DNA from: Nocardioides oleivorans
GTDB taxonomy: Bacteria; Actinomycetota; Actinomycetes; Propionibacteriales; Nocardioidaceae
Reading direction: 5' to 3'
Assembly (NCBI RefSeq): GCF_004137255.1
Contig: NZ_SDWT01000001.1
Location: 2,418,001 to 2,482,000 of the forward strand
Length of the DNA stretch: 64,000 nt
In this document: piece by piece, positions 8,610 to 42,710 of the stretch
Layout of the letters: each line of letters starts with the position of its first letter
Numbering within the stretch: position 1 is the stretch's first letter
Translations under genes and position numbers: made by a program
The notes under the pieces: generated by a model
What the model was told of the DNA's origin: nothing
The model's input: only the letters and a program-made list of their open reading frames with translations
Database searches by the model: none

Positions 8610-9587
8610 ATGAGCACCCCGAGCACCGGTCCGAGCACCAGCCCGAGCACCAGCCCGAGCACCATGGCGAGCCCGGTCGCGGCCATCGACTGCGGCACGA
8701 ACTCGATCAAGGTGCTGATCGGCCGGCGCCGTGACGACGGCACCCTCGACGTCCTCGTGCGCGAGTCCCGGGTCGTCCGGCTGGGCCAGGGCGTGGACCG
8801 GACCGGGGTGCTCGCCGACGAGGCCCTCGACCGCACGTTCGCGGCGATCGACGAGCTGGCCGGGATCATCCGCAGCCACGAGGTCCCGCCCGCCCACGTC
8901 CGCTTCTGCGCGACCTCGGCCACCCGCGACGCGAGCAACGCCGACGTCTTCCGTGACGGCGTACGCCGTCGGCTCGGCATCGAGCCCGAGGTGCTCTCCG
9001 GCGACGAGGAGGCGGCGCTGGTGTACGCCGGTGCCATCGCAGCGCAGGTCCCGATGCCGCCCGAGCCGGTGCTCGTCGTCGACATCGGCGGCGGGTCCAC
9101 CGAGCTGGTGCTGGGGGAGGGCGAGGAGCGGCAGTCGGTGTCGATGGACATCGGGTCCGTCCGGCTCCACGAGCGCCACCTCCACAGCGACCCGCCGACC
9201 GCGGCGGAGGTCGCCGCCTGCGTGGTCGACATCGACGCGCACCTCGACGCCTCCGACGTACCCCTCGAGCGCACGCGCACGGTGATCGGCACCTCCGGCA
9301 CCATCAAGACCCTCGCCTGCGGGGTGCTCGACCTCGGGGCCTACGACCGCGACGGGTTCGACCGCGCCGTGCTGTCCAACGCCACGACCGCCGGCTTCGT
9401 CGACCGCCTGGTCGCGATGACGGTCGAGGAGCGGCGCGCGCTGCCCTACATGCACCCCGGCCGCGCCGACGTGATCGACGCGGGAGCCCTGATCTGGAGC
9501 CGGATCCTGGCGCGCGTGCCGGTGCCCGACCACCTCGTCTCCGAGGCCGACATCCTGCACGGCATGGCCGCGGCGATCGAGCCGTGA
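8610..9587 (+). CDS. ppx: Ppx/GppA exopolyphosphatase
   Basis: The enzyme removes phosphate from the ends of polyphosphate chains or hydrolyses pppGpp. The actin-like ATPase fold shows as AAIDCGTNSIKVLIG (phosphate-1 motif), the RESRVVRLGQGV segment, DIGGGSTELVLG (phosphate-2) and GTSGTIKTLA. At 325 residues it is the short actinobacterial type without the C-terminal HD domain. The annotated start ATG 8610 adds an 18-residue Ser/Thr/Pro-rich extension encoded by 12-bp tandem repeats. ATG 8664 directly before SPVAAIDCG is a credible alternative. The gene lies 4 bases after DUF501. Confidence 0.92.
   Translation: MSTPSTGPSTSPSTSPSTMASPVAAIDCGTNSIKVLIGRRRDDGTLDVLVRESRVVRLGQGVDRTGVLADEALDRTFAAIDELAGIIRSHEVPPAHVRFCATSATRDASNADVFRDGVRRRLGIEPEVLSGDEEAALVYAGAIAAQVPMPPEPVLVVDIGGGSTELVLGEGEERQSVSMDIGSVRLHERHLHSDPPTAAEVAACVVDIDAHLDASDVPLERTRTVIGTSGTIKTLACGVLDLGAYDRDGFDRAVLSNATTAGFVDRLVAMTVEERRALPYMHPGRADVIDAGALIWSRILARVPVPDHLVSEADILHGMAAAIEP
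8619..8666 (+). repeat. Four tandem 12-bp units in the ppx 5' end
   Basis: Units of the type CCGAGCACCAGC occur four times with small variations. They encode a Ser-Thr-Pro linker ahead of the conserved domain. The variable copy makes the true start of ppx uncertain. Confidence 0.75.
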
Positions 9588-10414
9588 CGCTCCTGCCGCA
9601 CCCGGTCGTCGGGGGCTCGTTCGCGAGCCCGGTGGCGCCCGGGACCGGTTGGCCGGACGACCCGGCTTCCCCGGACACGCCCGTCGCCCGCACCCCCGCT
9701 GGCGTACGACGACTCGCGCGCGCCGACACCCTCGACGAGCTGACCGCCCGGGTGAGCGTGTGCGCGGCGTGCGACCGGCTGGTCACCTGGCGCGAGGACG
9801 TCGCCCGCGACAAGCGTGCCTCCTTCGCCGACCAGCCCTACTGGGGCCGGCCGATCGCGGGCTGGGGCGACCCTGAGCCGACCCTGCTGGTCGTCGGCCT
9901 CGCGCCGGCCGCCAACGGCGGCAACCGGACCGGACGGATCTTCACCGGTGACCCGAGCGCGGACTGGCTCTTCGCCAGCCTGCACCGCACCGGGTGGGCC
10001 AGCCAGCCGACCAGCGAGCACGCCGGCGACGGGCAGCAGCTCCTCGACGCGCGGATGGTCGCGACCGTGCGGTGCGCGCCGCCGGACAACAAGCCCACGC
10101 CCGCGGAGCGCGACACCTGCGCGCCGTGGATCGCCGCGGAGCTCGCGCTGCTGCCGACCGTGCGCGCCGTGGTCGCGCTCGGGTCGTTCGGCTGGGACGG
10201 CGCGATCCGCTCGCTCGTCGCGGCCGGGGCTCCCGCTCCGGCGCGGAAGCCGAAGTTCGCCCACGCCGCCGAGGTCACGCTCGGCGACGTGACGCTGATC
10301 GGGTGCTACCACCCCTCGCCGCACAACACCTACACCGGACGGCTGACGGCGGAGATGACCGATGCGGTCTTCGAGCGGGCCCGACGGGTGACCGAGACGT
10401 CGCTGACAGACTGA
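9584..10414 (+). CDS. Family 5 uracil-DNA glycosylase (UdgB-like)
   Basis: Uracil-DNA glycosylases of this family excise uracil and related deaminated bases from DNA. The active-site motif GLAPAANGGNRTGR (about residues 105-118) and the C-terminal motif GCYHPSPHNT (about residue 239) are those of family 5. Cysteines at CAAC near the N-terminus, VRCAPP and DTCAPW fit the family's iron-sulfur cluster. The length of 276 residues is normal. GTG 9584 overlaps the ppx stop by 4 bases. Its place at the end of the mfd/mazG neighbourhood fits a repair role, although it is probably co-transcribed with ppx. Confidence 0.92.
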   Translation: MTLLPHPVVGGSFASPVAPGTGWPDDPASPDTPVARTPAGVRRLARADTLDELTARVSVCAACDRLVTWREDVARDKRASFADQPYWGRPIAGWGDPEPTLLVVGLAPAANGGNRTGRIFTGDPSADWLFASLHRTGWASQPTSEHAGDGQQLLDARMVATVRCAPPDNKPTPAERDTCAPWIAAELALLPTVRAVVALGSFGWDGAIRSLVAAGAPAPARKPKFAHAAEVTLGDVTLIGCYHPSPHNTYTGRLTAEMTDAVFERARRVTETSLTD

Positions 10415-10423
10415 GCCCCGACG

Positions 10424-10497
10424 GCCCCGGTATCCCAACCGGTAGAGGAAGCGGTCTTAAAAACCGCGCAGTCTGGGTTCGAACCCCAGCCGGGGCA
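10424..10497 (+). tRNA. tRNA with UAA anticodon (leucine codon UUA) and short variable loop
   Basis: The 74-nt sequence folds as a type I cloverleaf. The acceptor is GCCCCGG/CCGGGGC with discriminator A. The D arm has a 3-bp stem and a G18G19 loop. The anticodon stem GCGGT/ACCGC encloses loop CTTAAAA, which gives anticodon UAA. The variable loop is only 5 nt (GCAGT), and the T arm is CTGGG/CCCAG with loop TTCGAAC. U8, A14 and an A15-U48 Levitt pair are present. CCA is not encoded; CCC follows. The anticodon specifies leucine, but bacterial tRNA-Leu normally has a long variable arm, which this one lacks. The gene ends 3 bases from the stop of the convergent TetM-like gene. Confidence 0.9.
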
Positions 10498-10500
10498 CCC

Positions 10501-12438
10501 TCACCCCCGCCGAACAGGCCCGCGCCCGCGGACCGGCTGGTAGCCGTCGAAGCGTGCGTCCAGCACCCCTTCGCCGCCGGTCAGGTCCGGGAGCCGGTGC
10601 TGGAGGTCGTGCAGCCGCGTCGCCACGACCCGCGCCTCGAGACGGGTGAGGTCGCCGAACGCGGTCTGGCCGGTGATCTCCGTGCCCCAGCGGCCGAGGA
10701 GCTGTTGCAGCTGCGGGGCGACCCGGGTCGGCACCTCGAGGTCGACGCGCAGCACCGGCTCGCAGACCCGGGTCGTCGCACGGGCGAGCGCCTGGCCCAC
10801 GACGAGGGGCGTCAGCTTGCGGAAGTCCAGCGCGGTGGGCACCGGGCCACGCTGGGACGGCGGCCCGTCCCAGGACGCGTAGCCGACCTCGACGAGCGCC
10901 ACCCGGCAGTCGGTGACCTCCCAACCCGAGGGACCGCGCTCGAGCGCGCGCGAGACGTGTTGCCGCATGACCGACGTGAAGTGCTCGACCGACCCGAAGA
11001 GGAACAGCGGCAGGTCGCGCAGCGGGCACTCGAGGTCCAGGGCGACCCCGCTGCCGGGCTCCGCCGGCGTGATGCGGATCCCGATCGTGGCCCAGTAGGG
11101 GTTGGACGGGGTGTTGAAGCGCTCGACGGCCGCTCCGGCCCGGCGCGGCCGCTCGACGTGCAGCACGCTTGCCTCGGAGAACTCCACCTCGATGCCGTGC
11201 TCCTCCGCCAGTGTCGAGGCGATGACCTCCTGCTGCACGCGCCCGTAGAGCGAGAGGGTCGGGTGCCCGGCCACGTCGGTGCGAGCTGCGATGAGCGGGT
11301 CCTGGTCGGCGAGCTGCGCCAGCGCGACGCGCAGCGCGGTGCGCTGCTCGACGGCGCAGGCCTCGACGGACGCCTCCAGGGTCGGCGGCGGGAAGTGGTG
11401 TTCCTCTGCGCGGGCCGACGTGCCGAAGCCGTCGCCCACGCGGACTGCGGTCAGGCCGAGCAGCCGCGCGACCTGGCCCGCACCGACCTCGTCGGCGCGC
11501 TCCCAGTGGCCGTCGCGGAAGAGCTCGATGCTCGCGACCTTGCCGGTCCGGTCGCCGGCGAGCTCGAGCCGCTGGCGGACCCGGAGCGCCCCGGAGAACA
11601 TCCGCACGTAGGCGACCTTCTCGCCCGCTGCGCCGCGGTCGACCTTGAACGCCCGGCCCGAGGCCGGCCCGCCGGGATCGGGGGTGGCAGTGGGCAGGAG
11701 CGAGGCGATGCCCGCCACCAGCTCGGCGATCCCGGCCCCGGTGGCCGCGGACCCCGCGAAGACGGGATGCAACCGGCACGCACCCGTCTGGTCCGCGACC
11801 GAGCCCACGAGCTCCGCAGCCGTGCGGGCGCGGCCGTCCACGTAGGCCGCGAGCAGGTCGTCGTCGTGCTCCGCGAGCGCGACCGCCTCCCGCTCGAGGA
11901 ACGCGGCGTCGTCCGGCGGGAAGGCGACGAACTCCGCGCCACGCGATCCCGTCGCGCGGGTCGTGCCCATGGGCAGCACCGCCGGGGTGAGCCTGGTCCG
12001 CACCGCGGCGAGCACCGCGTCCAGGTCGGCACCCACCCGGTCGACCTTGTTCACGAACAGCAGGGTCGGCACCTTCAGCCGCTGCAAGGCTCGCATCAGG
12101 ATCCGGGTCTGGGGCTGCACGCCTTCGACGGCTGAGAGCACCAGCACGGCGCCGTCGAGCACGCCGAGGACGCGCTCGACCTCGGCGACGAAGTCGGGGT
12201 GCCCAGGGGTGTCGATCACGTTGACGACGAGCCCGTCGAGCGGGAGCGCCACCACGGCGGACTTGATGGTGATGCCGCGACGTCGTTCGAGGTCGAGGCT
12301 GTCGGTCTGCGTCGTGCCGGCGTCCACGGACCCGGGGCGGTCGATGACCCCGCAGTGGTGGAGGAGACGTTCGGTGAGGGTGGTCTTACCGGCGTCGACG
12401 TGGGCGAGGATGCCCAGGTTGAGCGAGCGTGGCTGCAC
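10501..12438 (-). CDS. TetM/TetO-type ribosomal protection GTPase
   Basis: These EF-G-like GTPases release tetracycline from the ribosome. GTP-binding motifs are AHVDAGKTT (residues 12-20), DTPGHPDF (76-83) and NKVD (130-133). EF-G-like domains follow. The domain IV loop [15 protein letters not shown] matches the decoding-centre loop conserved in Tet(M)/Tet(O). The 645-residue length is right for the family. GTG 12438 follows AAGGGA with 6-base spacing. Many soil actinobacteria carry chromosomal relatives, so it may be an intrinsic self-protection or antibiotic-response gene; resistance is inferred. The first part overlaps a possible leader ORF in another frame. Confidence 0.88.
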
Positions 12439-12490
12439 GCGAGGTCCCTTCGAGGAGGTGGATGCGGACGGGTGCGTGCGTTGCTCGCAT
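12386..12490 (-). CDS. Possible leader peptide of the TetM-like gene
   Basis: An ATG at 12490 with an upstream GAGAGAGG site opens a 34-codon frame. It starts [20 protein letters not shown], ends in an arginine run, and terminates 52 bases inside the TetM-like gene in a different frame. Short leader ORFs that control antibiotic-resistance genes by ribosome stalling or attenuation are well known. The arrangement fits such a role, but I see no decisive hairpin, and the evidence is limited to the ribosome site and position. Confidence 0.35.
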
Positions 12491-12725
12491 CTCGGTGCCT
12501 CTCTCGGGATCTCGAGGGTGCCGGCGCTTCCGGCCCACCCACCGTAGGCACCTCCGGCCTGCTCCGGCAACGGATTTGCGCCGGGCCCGGTGGCGCCGGG
12601 CGAGGGCGTCGGCGCCTCCACGAGGCGCACTGTTCATCCGGCGTTCGTCGGTGTGCGCCGATCCATTCCCCGGTCCCGGCTTGAGTTCGCTCGATCATCC
12701 TCCCGAGCGAAGGATCCACCCCCTG

Positions 12726-40881: not shown

Positions 40882-41933
40882 GCCTCCACTTCGACGCAGC
40901 CGTGCTCGAGCGGTCCGTCGACGTCTCCCTCGAGGTCGGGAACGGCGAGACGGTCGCGCTGCTGGGGCCCAACGGGGCGGGGAAGTCCACCGTGCTCGCA
41001 GTCGCCGCCGGACTGCTGCGTCCCGACCGGGGCCGGGTCAGCCTCGACGGTCGCCCGCTGACCGTGCGGGGGCACCCGGAGCGGGACGTCGACGTACCTC
41101 CGCACGACCGGCACGTGTCCCTGCTCGCCCAGGAGCCGCTGCTCTTCCCGCACCTCAGCGTCCTCGACAACGTCGCCTTCGGCCCCCGGAGCCGAGGGCG
41201 GTCGCGCGCGGCGTCCCGGGAGGCAGCTTCCCACTGGATCGCGGAGGTCGGCATCGAGGAGCTGGCGGCCCGCAAGCCCGCCCAGCTCTCCGGTGGGCAG
41301 GCCCAGCGCGCCGCTGTCGCGCGCGCCCTGGCCTCCGACCCCGGCCTCCTGCTCCTCGACGAGCCGATGGCCGCACTCGACGTCGCCGTCACGCCGGCCC
41401 TGCGCCAGACCCTGCGACGCGTGCTCGAGGACCGGACCGTCCTGCTGGTCACCCACGACCCGCTCGACGCCCTCGTGCTGGCGGACCGGGTGGTGGTGAT
41501 CCACGACGGCAAGGTCGTCGAGCACGGTCCGTCCTCGGAGGTCCTGGCCCGTCCGCGCAGCACGTTCACCGCCCAGCTCGCCGGTCTCAACATGCTCAGC
41601 GGCACCTGGGTGGACGGTGGCGTGGACACGCCGTCCGGGCACCGCCTCGAGGGTCGCGTCGCCGGCGCGCAGCCGGAGGACGGGAGGCCCGTCGTCGCGG
41701 TCTTCCCGCCCCACGCGGTGAGCATCTTCCTCGAGCGTCCCGGCGGGAGCCCGCGCAACGCGCTCGACGTGACGATCACCCACCTCGAACCCCACAGCGG
41801 GCAGATCCGCGCCCGGACCGACGAGGTCACCGCCGACGTCACGCCGCAGTCGGCCGCCGAGCTCGACCTCGTGCCGGGGTCACGGGTCTACTTCACCGTC
41901 AAGGCCAACGAGGTCCTCGTCTACGCCATCTGA
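40878..41933 (+). CDS. modC: Molybdate ABC transporter ATP-binding protein
   Basis: The 351-residue ATPase has Walker [10 protein letters not shown] (about residues 33-41), Q-loop, ABC signature [15 protein letters not shown], Walker [13 protein letters not shown] and H-loop [15 protein letters not shown]-terminal Mop/TOBE-like domain (about residue 290 onward) is usual for ModC and may sense molybdate. The last 54 bases overlap the convergent cation transporter gene. Confidence 0.93.
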
Positions 41934-42710
41934 CGGCCTCCGGACCCGGACGACACTGCCGACCTGCAGCAGCGGCGACGCACCGCCGGCCTCCGCCGAG
42001 ACGTCGTACGCACCGGTCTGCGAGCAGCAGTCGTCGCCGCACCCGCACGCGTCCTGCGCGCCACCCGTGCCGCCCGTTCCGCCCGTTCCGATGGCCCCGC
42101 AGCAACCCTCGCCGCGCCAGGCCGCGCGCCCCTCCTTGACGGCGACGGCCGCGATCACCAGCCCCGCGACCGGATCGGCCCAGGACCACCCGAGCGTTGC
42201 GTTGAGCACCAGCCCGACCAGGAGGACGGCCGAGAGGTAGGTGCAGAGCAGGGTCTGCGTCGAGTCCGCCACGACCGCGTTCGACCCGAGCGCCCTCCCG
42301 GTGCGTCGTTGCGCCCAGGAGAGGAACGGCATGATCGCCAGCGAGGCGATCGCCAGGCCGATGCCGACGGGGGAGTGCTCCGGGTCGTGGTCGCTCAGCA
42401 GCGCCCGCACCGACTCGAGGGACACGTAGGCGGCGAGGGCGAAGAACGAGAACGCCATCAGCCGTAAGGCGAGGCGCTCGCGCGTCTCCGGGAGCCGGTG
42501 GCGGAACTGCCACAGGATGATGAGGCCGCTCGAGACCTCGACGATGGAGTCGAGGCCGAAGCCGACCAGCGCCACGGATCCGGCGACCACGCCGGCGGTG
42601 ATCGCGATGACCGCCTCGACGAGGTTGTACGCCACCGACGCCGCGGCCAGCAGCTGCGCCCGTCGGCCGAGCCGCGCCCGATCGGCGACCGAGACGGTCG
42701 AGCTGCTCAT
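41880..42710 (-). CDS. Cation transporter with Cys-rich C-terminal tail
   Basis: The 276-residue protein has about five to six membrane segments with VGFGLDSIVEVSSGLIILWQFRHRL, a cation diffusion-type segment with acidic metal-binding residues. The C-terminal tail contains GEGCCGAIG, a GTGGTGGTGG linker and CGCGDDCC, which could bind thiophilic metals such as Cd, Zn or Cu. It is translated from an ATG overlapping the stop of an ArsR-family gene, so it is probably a metal-efflux protein controlled by that repressor. The final 18 residues lie in sequence shared with the modC 3' end on the other strand, and the tail may be an extension. Confidence 0.82.
   Translation of the reverse strand: MSSSTVSVADRARLGRRAQLLAAASVAYNLVEAVIAITAGVVAGSVALVGFGLDSIVEVSSGLIILWQFRHRLPETRERLALRLMAFSFFALAAYVSLESVRALLSDHDPEHSPVGIGLAIASLAIMPFLSWAQRRTGRALGSNAVVADSTQTLLCTYLSAVLLVGLVLNATLGWSWADPVAGLVIAAVAVKEGRAAWRGEGCCGAIGTGGTGGTGGAQDACGCGDDCCSQTGAYDVSAEAGGASPLLQVGSVVRVRRPSDGVDEDLVGLDGEVDP

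Follow-up and report, generated by a model that had tools for sequence, protein, structure and literature searches.

The UUA-reading leucine tRNA of bacteria, tRNA-Leu(UAA), is canonically a long-armed tRNA of class II, the bldA tRNA of Streptomyces included. Class II has been defined by a variable region of at least 10 nt, and tRNA-Leu is put in this class in the available part of a review on non-canonical tRNA structures, in whose main text the terms 'actinobacteria' and 'short variable' are absent (PMC7609411). According to the accessible portion of a 2023 review, tRNA-Leu keeps its long arm everywhere but in animal mitochondria. The leucine identity elements given in the available text of PMC9976931 are A73, the A15-U48 Levitt pair, A20a, U8-A14 and G18G19. 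According to the same text, E. coli tRNA-Leu variants are still active when the long arm is missing, and the tRNA-Leu(UUR) of human mitochondria, likewise devoid of it, is recognised essentially via A73 and A14. Hence, the long arm is not a requirement of LeuRS. Animal mitochondrial tRNA-Leu(UUR) is armless like the tRNA described here, although it is organellar and served by a LeuRS of its own, and the animal mitochondrial and the actinobacterial armless leucine tRNAs are probably of independent origin. Within actinobacteria, a likewise short-loop leucine isoacceptor, tRNA-Leu(TAG), was reported from a tRNA gene cluster in type strains of the M. mucogenicum clade (PMC6582537). As far as the available text of that paper goes, it is an accessory cluster gene beside a normal long TAG gene, whereas the UAA gene described below is the only one of its genome, and TAA is not discussed. 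Leucine tRNAs of M. tuberculosis appear in a study of the MenT3 toxin, the accessible part of which carries no remark on their shortness or anticodon (PMC11541572). In the mainly open-access papers surveyed, in the portions available, no class-wide short-armed tRNA-Leu is described, and short mycobacterial ones occur only in passing. Our best guess is that short tRNA-Leu(TAA) genes are present in tRNA databases and have hardly been remarked on.

Here, a tRNA gene with anticodon UAA and a short variable loop is described from Nocardioides oleivorans. It lies in a window of 64,000 nucleotides, by which the whole stretch of DNA analysed is meant (Table 1); G and L numbers below are our labels for genomes and loci.

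Table 1 Positions of the tRNA gene, its structural parts and the other genes discussed, counted from the first letter of the window
Feature	Position	Strand	Basis
Gene of the uracil-DNA glycosylase (UDG) superfamily, its end 9 bases upstream of the tRNA	9584..10414	+	Pfam PF03167
tRNA-Leu(UAA), type I, 74 nt without CCA	10424..10497	+	ARAGORN; Rfam RF00005, 54.7 bits
Leucine-type D arm with a stem of 3 bp (U10-A25, C11-G24, C12-G23), then C13·A22	10433..10449	+	sequence; position tally
Anticodon UAA (loop CUUAAAA at 10456-10462)	10458..10460	+	ARAGORN
Variable loop GCAGU, 5 nt, where the long arm would be	10468..10472	+	sequence
Discriminator A73; CCA not encoded	10497	+	sequence
Otr(A)/TetM-like translation GTPase gene, converging from downstream	10501-12630	-	NCBIfam
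Cation-efflux-type gene with the only credible UUA of the 1.26 Mb sampled (codon 57, 42465-42467)	41880..42635	-	

ARAGORN calls a tRNA-Leu(taa) at 10424-10499 with the anticodon at gene position 35. In agreement with this call, the tRNA model RF00005 matches across its full length at 10424-10497 (E = 5e-9 in the window) and with a score above the gathering threshold of 29, which places the gene among genuine tRNAs. Read directly from the sequence, the acceptor stem is GCCCCGG/CCGGGGC, the anticodon stem GCGGU/ACCGC and the T stem CUGGG/CCCAG, and the D loop runs A14 A15 C C G18 G19 U A20a G21, with U48 able to make the A15-U48 Levitt pair. A73 is followed by CC at 10498-10499 and then by C, so that no CCA is encoded. 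With its variable loop of 5 nt the tRNA falls outside class II. Thus, ARAGORN, RF00005 and the sequence agree with the preliminary description, which had pointed to a UAA tRNA whose short variable loop runs against the long-arm rule, and the 5-nt loop, the 3-bp D stem with a C-A mismatch and the missing CCA that it listed all hold. The single-molecule minimum free energy fold is more stable than those of shuffled sequences (z = -2.41, 3 of 200 shuffles being equally stable) but is not a full cloverleaf, the D arm being misfolded; the cloverleaf assignment therefore relies on the covariance model and on comparison across relatives. In Nocardioides pini STR2 (L181), the UAA tRNA differs from that of the window by one base. 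Shared with the canonical long tRNA-Leu(UAA) are the anticodon, A73 and, mostly, U8-A14, A15-U48, G18G19 and A20a as well as a D stem of 3 bp with a mismatch at A22 after it, while the variable loop measures 5 nt in the short form as compared to 13-18 nt in the long one.

In 11 of 16 genus mates, the 3 kb upstream of the UAA tRNA contain a UDG homologue, and the UDG gene and the tRNA of the window may be co-transcribed; neither a sigma-70-like promoter nor a terminator was found by consensus near the tRNA gene. The converging GTPase resembles tetracycline ribosomal protection proteins, its best NCBIfam match, Otr(A), scoring 638.8 bits and thus below the curated cut-off of 900. No homologue of it occurs within 3 kb of the UAA tRNA in the 16 genus mates, and a link between the two is rejected on this ground.

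The own genome (G000; 4.48 Mb in nine contigs, completeness 99.99%) yields 45 tRNA matches, all of which were typed with ARAGORN. Its leucine set comprises five tRNAs, namely the long-armed CAA (84 nt), CAG (87 nt) and GAG (87 nt) and the short UAA and UAG, the latter with the variable loop CCAGU. A long-armed tRNA-Leu(UAA) or tRNA-Leu(UAG) is absent from these 45 typed tRNAs, and the window tRNA is the sole UUA reader found in the genome. The same survey brought up an odd tRNA of another kind, the sole tRNA-Gln(UUG) of the genome (L043, G000:C1:2367495-2367573; 80 nt by ARAGORN), in which our parsing gives a variable loop of 9 nt and U at position 14, and whose Rfam score is the lowest among the 45 tRNAs (40.1 bits).

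Leucine identity was scored over the 45 tRNAs by seven marks, U8, A14, A15, U48, A20a, A22 and A73. All seven coincide in exactly the five leucine tRNAs, and the other 40 reach at most five, with the reservation that U8 and A14 occur almost universally and have no discriminating power and that A22 was added after inspection of the own long leucine tRNAs. When A22 is omitted, the five leucine tRNAs still score six of six and the remaining 40 at most five of six. Of the published elements, A73, U8-A14, A15-U48, G18G19 and A20a are all found in the window tRNA. Statements on the D arm in relatives are based on 30 distinct short UAA tRNAs retrieved with a pattern that is blind to this arm; U8, A14, A15, G18, G19, A22, U48 and A73 are present in every one of them, and A20a is replaced by C in six, so this mark is not strict.

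The meaning of UUA was read from rpoB, collected from the own genome and 19 relatives with each UUA masked as X. Eighteen sequences were aligned (G217 gave no rpoB, and G299 was left out since its frame motif was not found); G270, which is among them and has a long UAA tRNA, supplies no UUA codon. Eight genomes contribute 69 UUA codons, and each of the eight has a short UAA tRNA by the class pattern search. Of the 69, 61 fall at columns in which the other genomes most often have leucine, the remaining eight at columns of valine (4), arginine, cysteine, alanine and isoleucine (1 each); where columns are at least 90% conserved, UUA coincides with leucine in 48 of 49. One relative, G306, with 44% GC over its rpoB locus, alone carries 40 of the codons, 34 of them at leucine columns. 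All 38 of its tRNAs were typed, and they include short UAA and CAA, long GAG and UAG and no long UAA; the other seven genomes have their short UAA tRNA by pattern, some together with a few extra, untyped matches that look like chance. In the window itself, the UUA at codon 57 of the cation-efflux-type gene faces leucine in 17 of 17 homologous stretches from 15 genus mates, these being the best 17 of 25 such stretches outside the own genome. As judged from these alignments, UUA specifies leucine in genomes with the short UAA tRNA. It is thus very improbable that the window tRNA reads UUA but carries phenylalanine, isoleucine, valine or lysine, UUA being recoded. A short variable loop and A73 are indeed common to several own type I tRNAs, but no own non-leucine tRNA approaches the full set of marks seen here, and both the rpoB columns, with valine a distant second, and codon 57 speak for leucine. 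The other charging identity considered in the preliminary description is hence rejected on identity marks and codon alignment together.

UUA is exceedingly scarce in the own genome, as had been supposed beforehand: over 1.26 Mb sampled, the 365,692 codons of 1,130 predicted genes contain two called UUA, against 394 UUG and 20,279 CUC, though the tRNA for UUA is kept. In this count gene starts are trimmed, and 6 kb from contig 6 enter two times. Moreover, the gene caller favours GC-rich codon usage, so that atypical genes, the likeliest UUA carriers, are under-counted. One of the two codons is codon 4 of a gene with a doubtful start. At such rarity, the UAA tRNA can do little work. Scarcity of this order is typical where UUA marks regulated genes and would suit an extra, specialised reader, perhaps regulatory in the manner of bldA, beside a long-armed one; yet the 'second' UUA reader envisaged in the preliminary description is ruled out by the typing of all 45 tRNAs, and barring a gene missed by the 99.99% complete assembly, nothing remains for the window tRNA to be extra to, which makes this reading scarcely tenable. 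The broader developmental significance of bldA may, according to the available part of PMC4255298, not even reach beyond the Streptomycineae.

The near-absence of UUA from the sample and the missing consensus promoter would equally fit a decaying gene which has lost its arm and become superfluous. This explanation is hardly credible in view of the relatives. All stems of the window tRNA are intact. When 98 distinct short UAA tRNAs are compared, 1656 of 1666 cells in the acceptor, anticodon and T stems are paired, and 16 of 17 stem pairs show two-sided changes, which argues that the short UAA genes are under constraint and not chance cloverleaves. In the genus (78 genomes), each of the 47 UAA genes matched is short, as tallied by string length and letters, mostly without tRNA typing, and low-GC relatives in which UUA is frequent, such as the one with 40 codons in a single rpoB, have the short form as well. 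On covariation and distribution, a pseudogene is thus rejected. Neither is C13·A22 a trace of decay, as it is found in 30 of the 30 D-arm-blind short UAA tRNAs.

The short form also has a core of its own. C12-G23 occurs in 30 of the 30 D-arm-blind sequences, and A9 in 26. In contrast, of 26 long UAA tRNAs 25 have G9, 24 have G12-C23 and none has C12-G23; at the place of C13·A22, G13·A22 is found in the long leucine tRNAs of the own genome. The variable loop is 5 nt long in 85 of the 98 distinct short UAA tRNAs and ends in AGU in 80. Because positions 9, 12-23 and 13·22 differ, the short and the long form represent two architectures, and the short one is not simply a long tRNA whose arm was trimmed. 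The core packing of class II is probably replaced by rearranged 9-12-23 and 13-22-46 contacts. In a genus mate (G236), tRNA-Leu(UAA) combines an unusual D arm with a variable loop of 9 nt (L467), possibly as an intermediate between the two architectures.

A UAA pattern search of 128 genomes of the class matched 102, of which 65 were assigned to the short form (one with a loop of 9 nt) and 37 to the long form by the length and letters of the matched strings, mostly without tRNA typing; the 26 unmatched genomes may have a T arm or D loop outside the pattern. Known misses of the patterns are the own UAG gene in the class UAG search and the own UAA gene in the genus search. A second UAA pattern, applied to named genomes, ignores the variable loop and requires a short-type D arm, most positions of which it fixes, so that conservation of the D arm in its loci is by construction. 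It returned at least 119 stretches from at least 80 loci. Among the matches listed, ARAGORN calls tRNA-Leu(taa) in 79 of 80 loci, and the remaining one (L166) looks like a chance match; once repeats are removed, the listed loci contribute 67 further sequences, none of them long, and their variable loop measures 5 nt in 66 cases and 6 nt in one. Record titles listed for short UAA genes name Nocardioides, Mycobacterium, Nocardia, Rhodococcus, Gordonia, Corynebacterium, Dietzia, Microbacterium, Arthrobacter, Amycolatopsis, Streptosporangium and Actinomadura. Both searches bear out the tentative mention, in the preliminary description, of short UAA tRNAs in other actinobacteria, and the short actinobacterial leucine tRNAs contradict the long-arm statement of the 2023 review. 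In one family (f3) the UAA form is long, yet CAA is short, as typed in G023 and G107.

Short leucine tRNAs were also met in other settings. A contig labelled as a Chloroflexaceae MAG holds 26 tRNA genes in an 8-kb locus (L162), with short tRNA-Leu(UAA) and tRNA-Leu(CAA) beside long tRNA-Leu(GAG) and tRNA-Leu(CAG), and a genome of the class has short tRNA-Leu(CAG) and tRNA-Leu(GAG) about 1.2 kb apart (L122). It may be that tandem tRNA arrays pass short leucine tRNAs from one bacterium to another. Short tRNA-Leu(UAA) genes of the same type stand on contigs with Planctomycetota, Rokuibacteriota and Deltaproteobacteria MAG labels (L141, L144, L163), where transfer, array genes or mis-binning may account for them.

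Short and long forms can be compared most closely at the UAG isoacceptor of the genus. Tallied in the same way as the UAA genes, UAG is short in 31 and long in 37 of the 78 genomes and present in both forms in none, with no UAG match in the remaining 10. From the 68 matched genomes, nine with a short and nine with a long UAG gene were chosen for synteny. Both flanks of the own UAG gene, downstream of which lies an RNase PH gene (Pfam PF01138), have homologues in 14 of the 17 other genomes, seven short and seven long; thus, both UAG forms occupy one locus. Trees were built mainly from RNase PH (13 genomes) and from UDG plus Ppx (16 genomes), with two starred branches each and weak support overall. 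On these trees the UAG states are mixed, requiring four and five parsimony changes, respectively, of which at least two are forced by well-supported branches. The two states cluster no better than labels assigned at random (for the short state, 226 and 236 of 500 shuffles give values as low), and a single clade of short forms is rejected by the AU test with p = 0.0003 on both weakly supported trees. As an alternative to swapping, an ancestor may have had both UAG genes, followed by differential loss. A recent copy of the UAA gene of the genus is an unlikely source of short UAG, since the UAA genes displayed have U10-A25 as opposed to G10-C25 in the short UAG genes. For CAA, the own genome has the long form and two genus mates (G251, G264) the short one.

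No LeuRS form that strictly follows the short arm emerged from ten genomes of the class. One bacterial LeuRS gene scores over the cut-off in each of them (loci L317-L335 overall), and two layouts of the match can be told apart. The N-terminal part is unbroken in five genomes, all with short UAA; in the other five the match is split near model position 142, with frames of 971-1009 aa. The split layout accompanies long UAA in G023, G193 and G207 and short UAA in G074 and G062. Hence, the short arm is compatible with either layout, although a partial link between layout and arm may exist among these ten genomes.

Taken together, the window tRNA is almost certainly a normal, leucine-charged tRNA and the sole reader of UUA, which does without the long variable arm. 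Its charging by LeuRS and its expression are to be expected. LeuRS would recognise A73 and the corner of D loop and T loop (U8-A14, A15-U48, G18 G19, A20a), and as these elements are all kept in the window tRNA, the long arm would be dispensable. SerRS, on the other hand, needs a long arm, so that a short one could mean still stronger avoidance of this enzyme. Loss of the arm would have been accompanied by a change of the core from mostly G9, G12-C23 and mostly G13·A22 to mostly A9, C12-G23 and C13·A22. The short forms presumably share common descent, as an inherited tRNA-Leu lineage of the Actinomycetota that serves UAA, CAA and UAG and, for a given isoacceptor, would be able to take over the locus of the long form. 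More tentatively, and as a reading we hold possible rather than probable, the Actinomycetota may have a second, type I tRNA-Leu lineage with a core of its own which has repeatedly displaced long isoacceptors in place, at UAA in much of the class, at CAA in several families and at UAG more than once in one genus.

The tRNA of N. oleivorans is accordingly neither a second UUA reader nor the bearer of a new identity, but a regular part of the translation machinery in a form that has been little described and that breaks a rule stated as exceptionless for bacteria. The long arm has been treated as fixed in bacterial leucine tRNAs, and it is absent from the UAA tRNA in a large part of the sampled Actinomycetes, including mycobacteria and corynebacteria. 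Related species which use the same isoacceptor with and without the arm, even at one locus, offer a natural experiment on the function of the arm. This is relevant for isotype classifiers that go by arm length, for the design of orthogonal tRNAs and for toxins that select tRNAs by their arm. If the wider proposal of a second lineage is true, the long arm of bacterial tRNA-Leu would be optional in nature, and mobile tRNA arrays or the escape from enzymes or toxins that grip the arm could be what drives the exchange.
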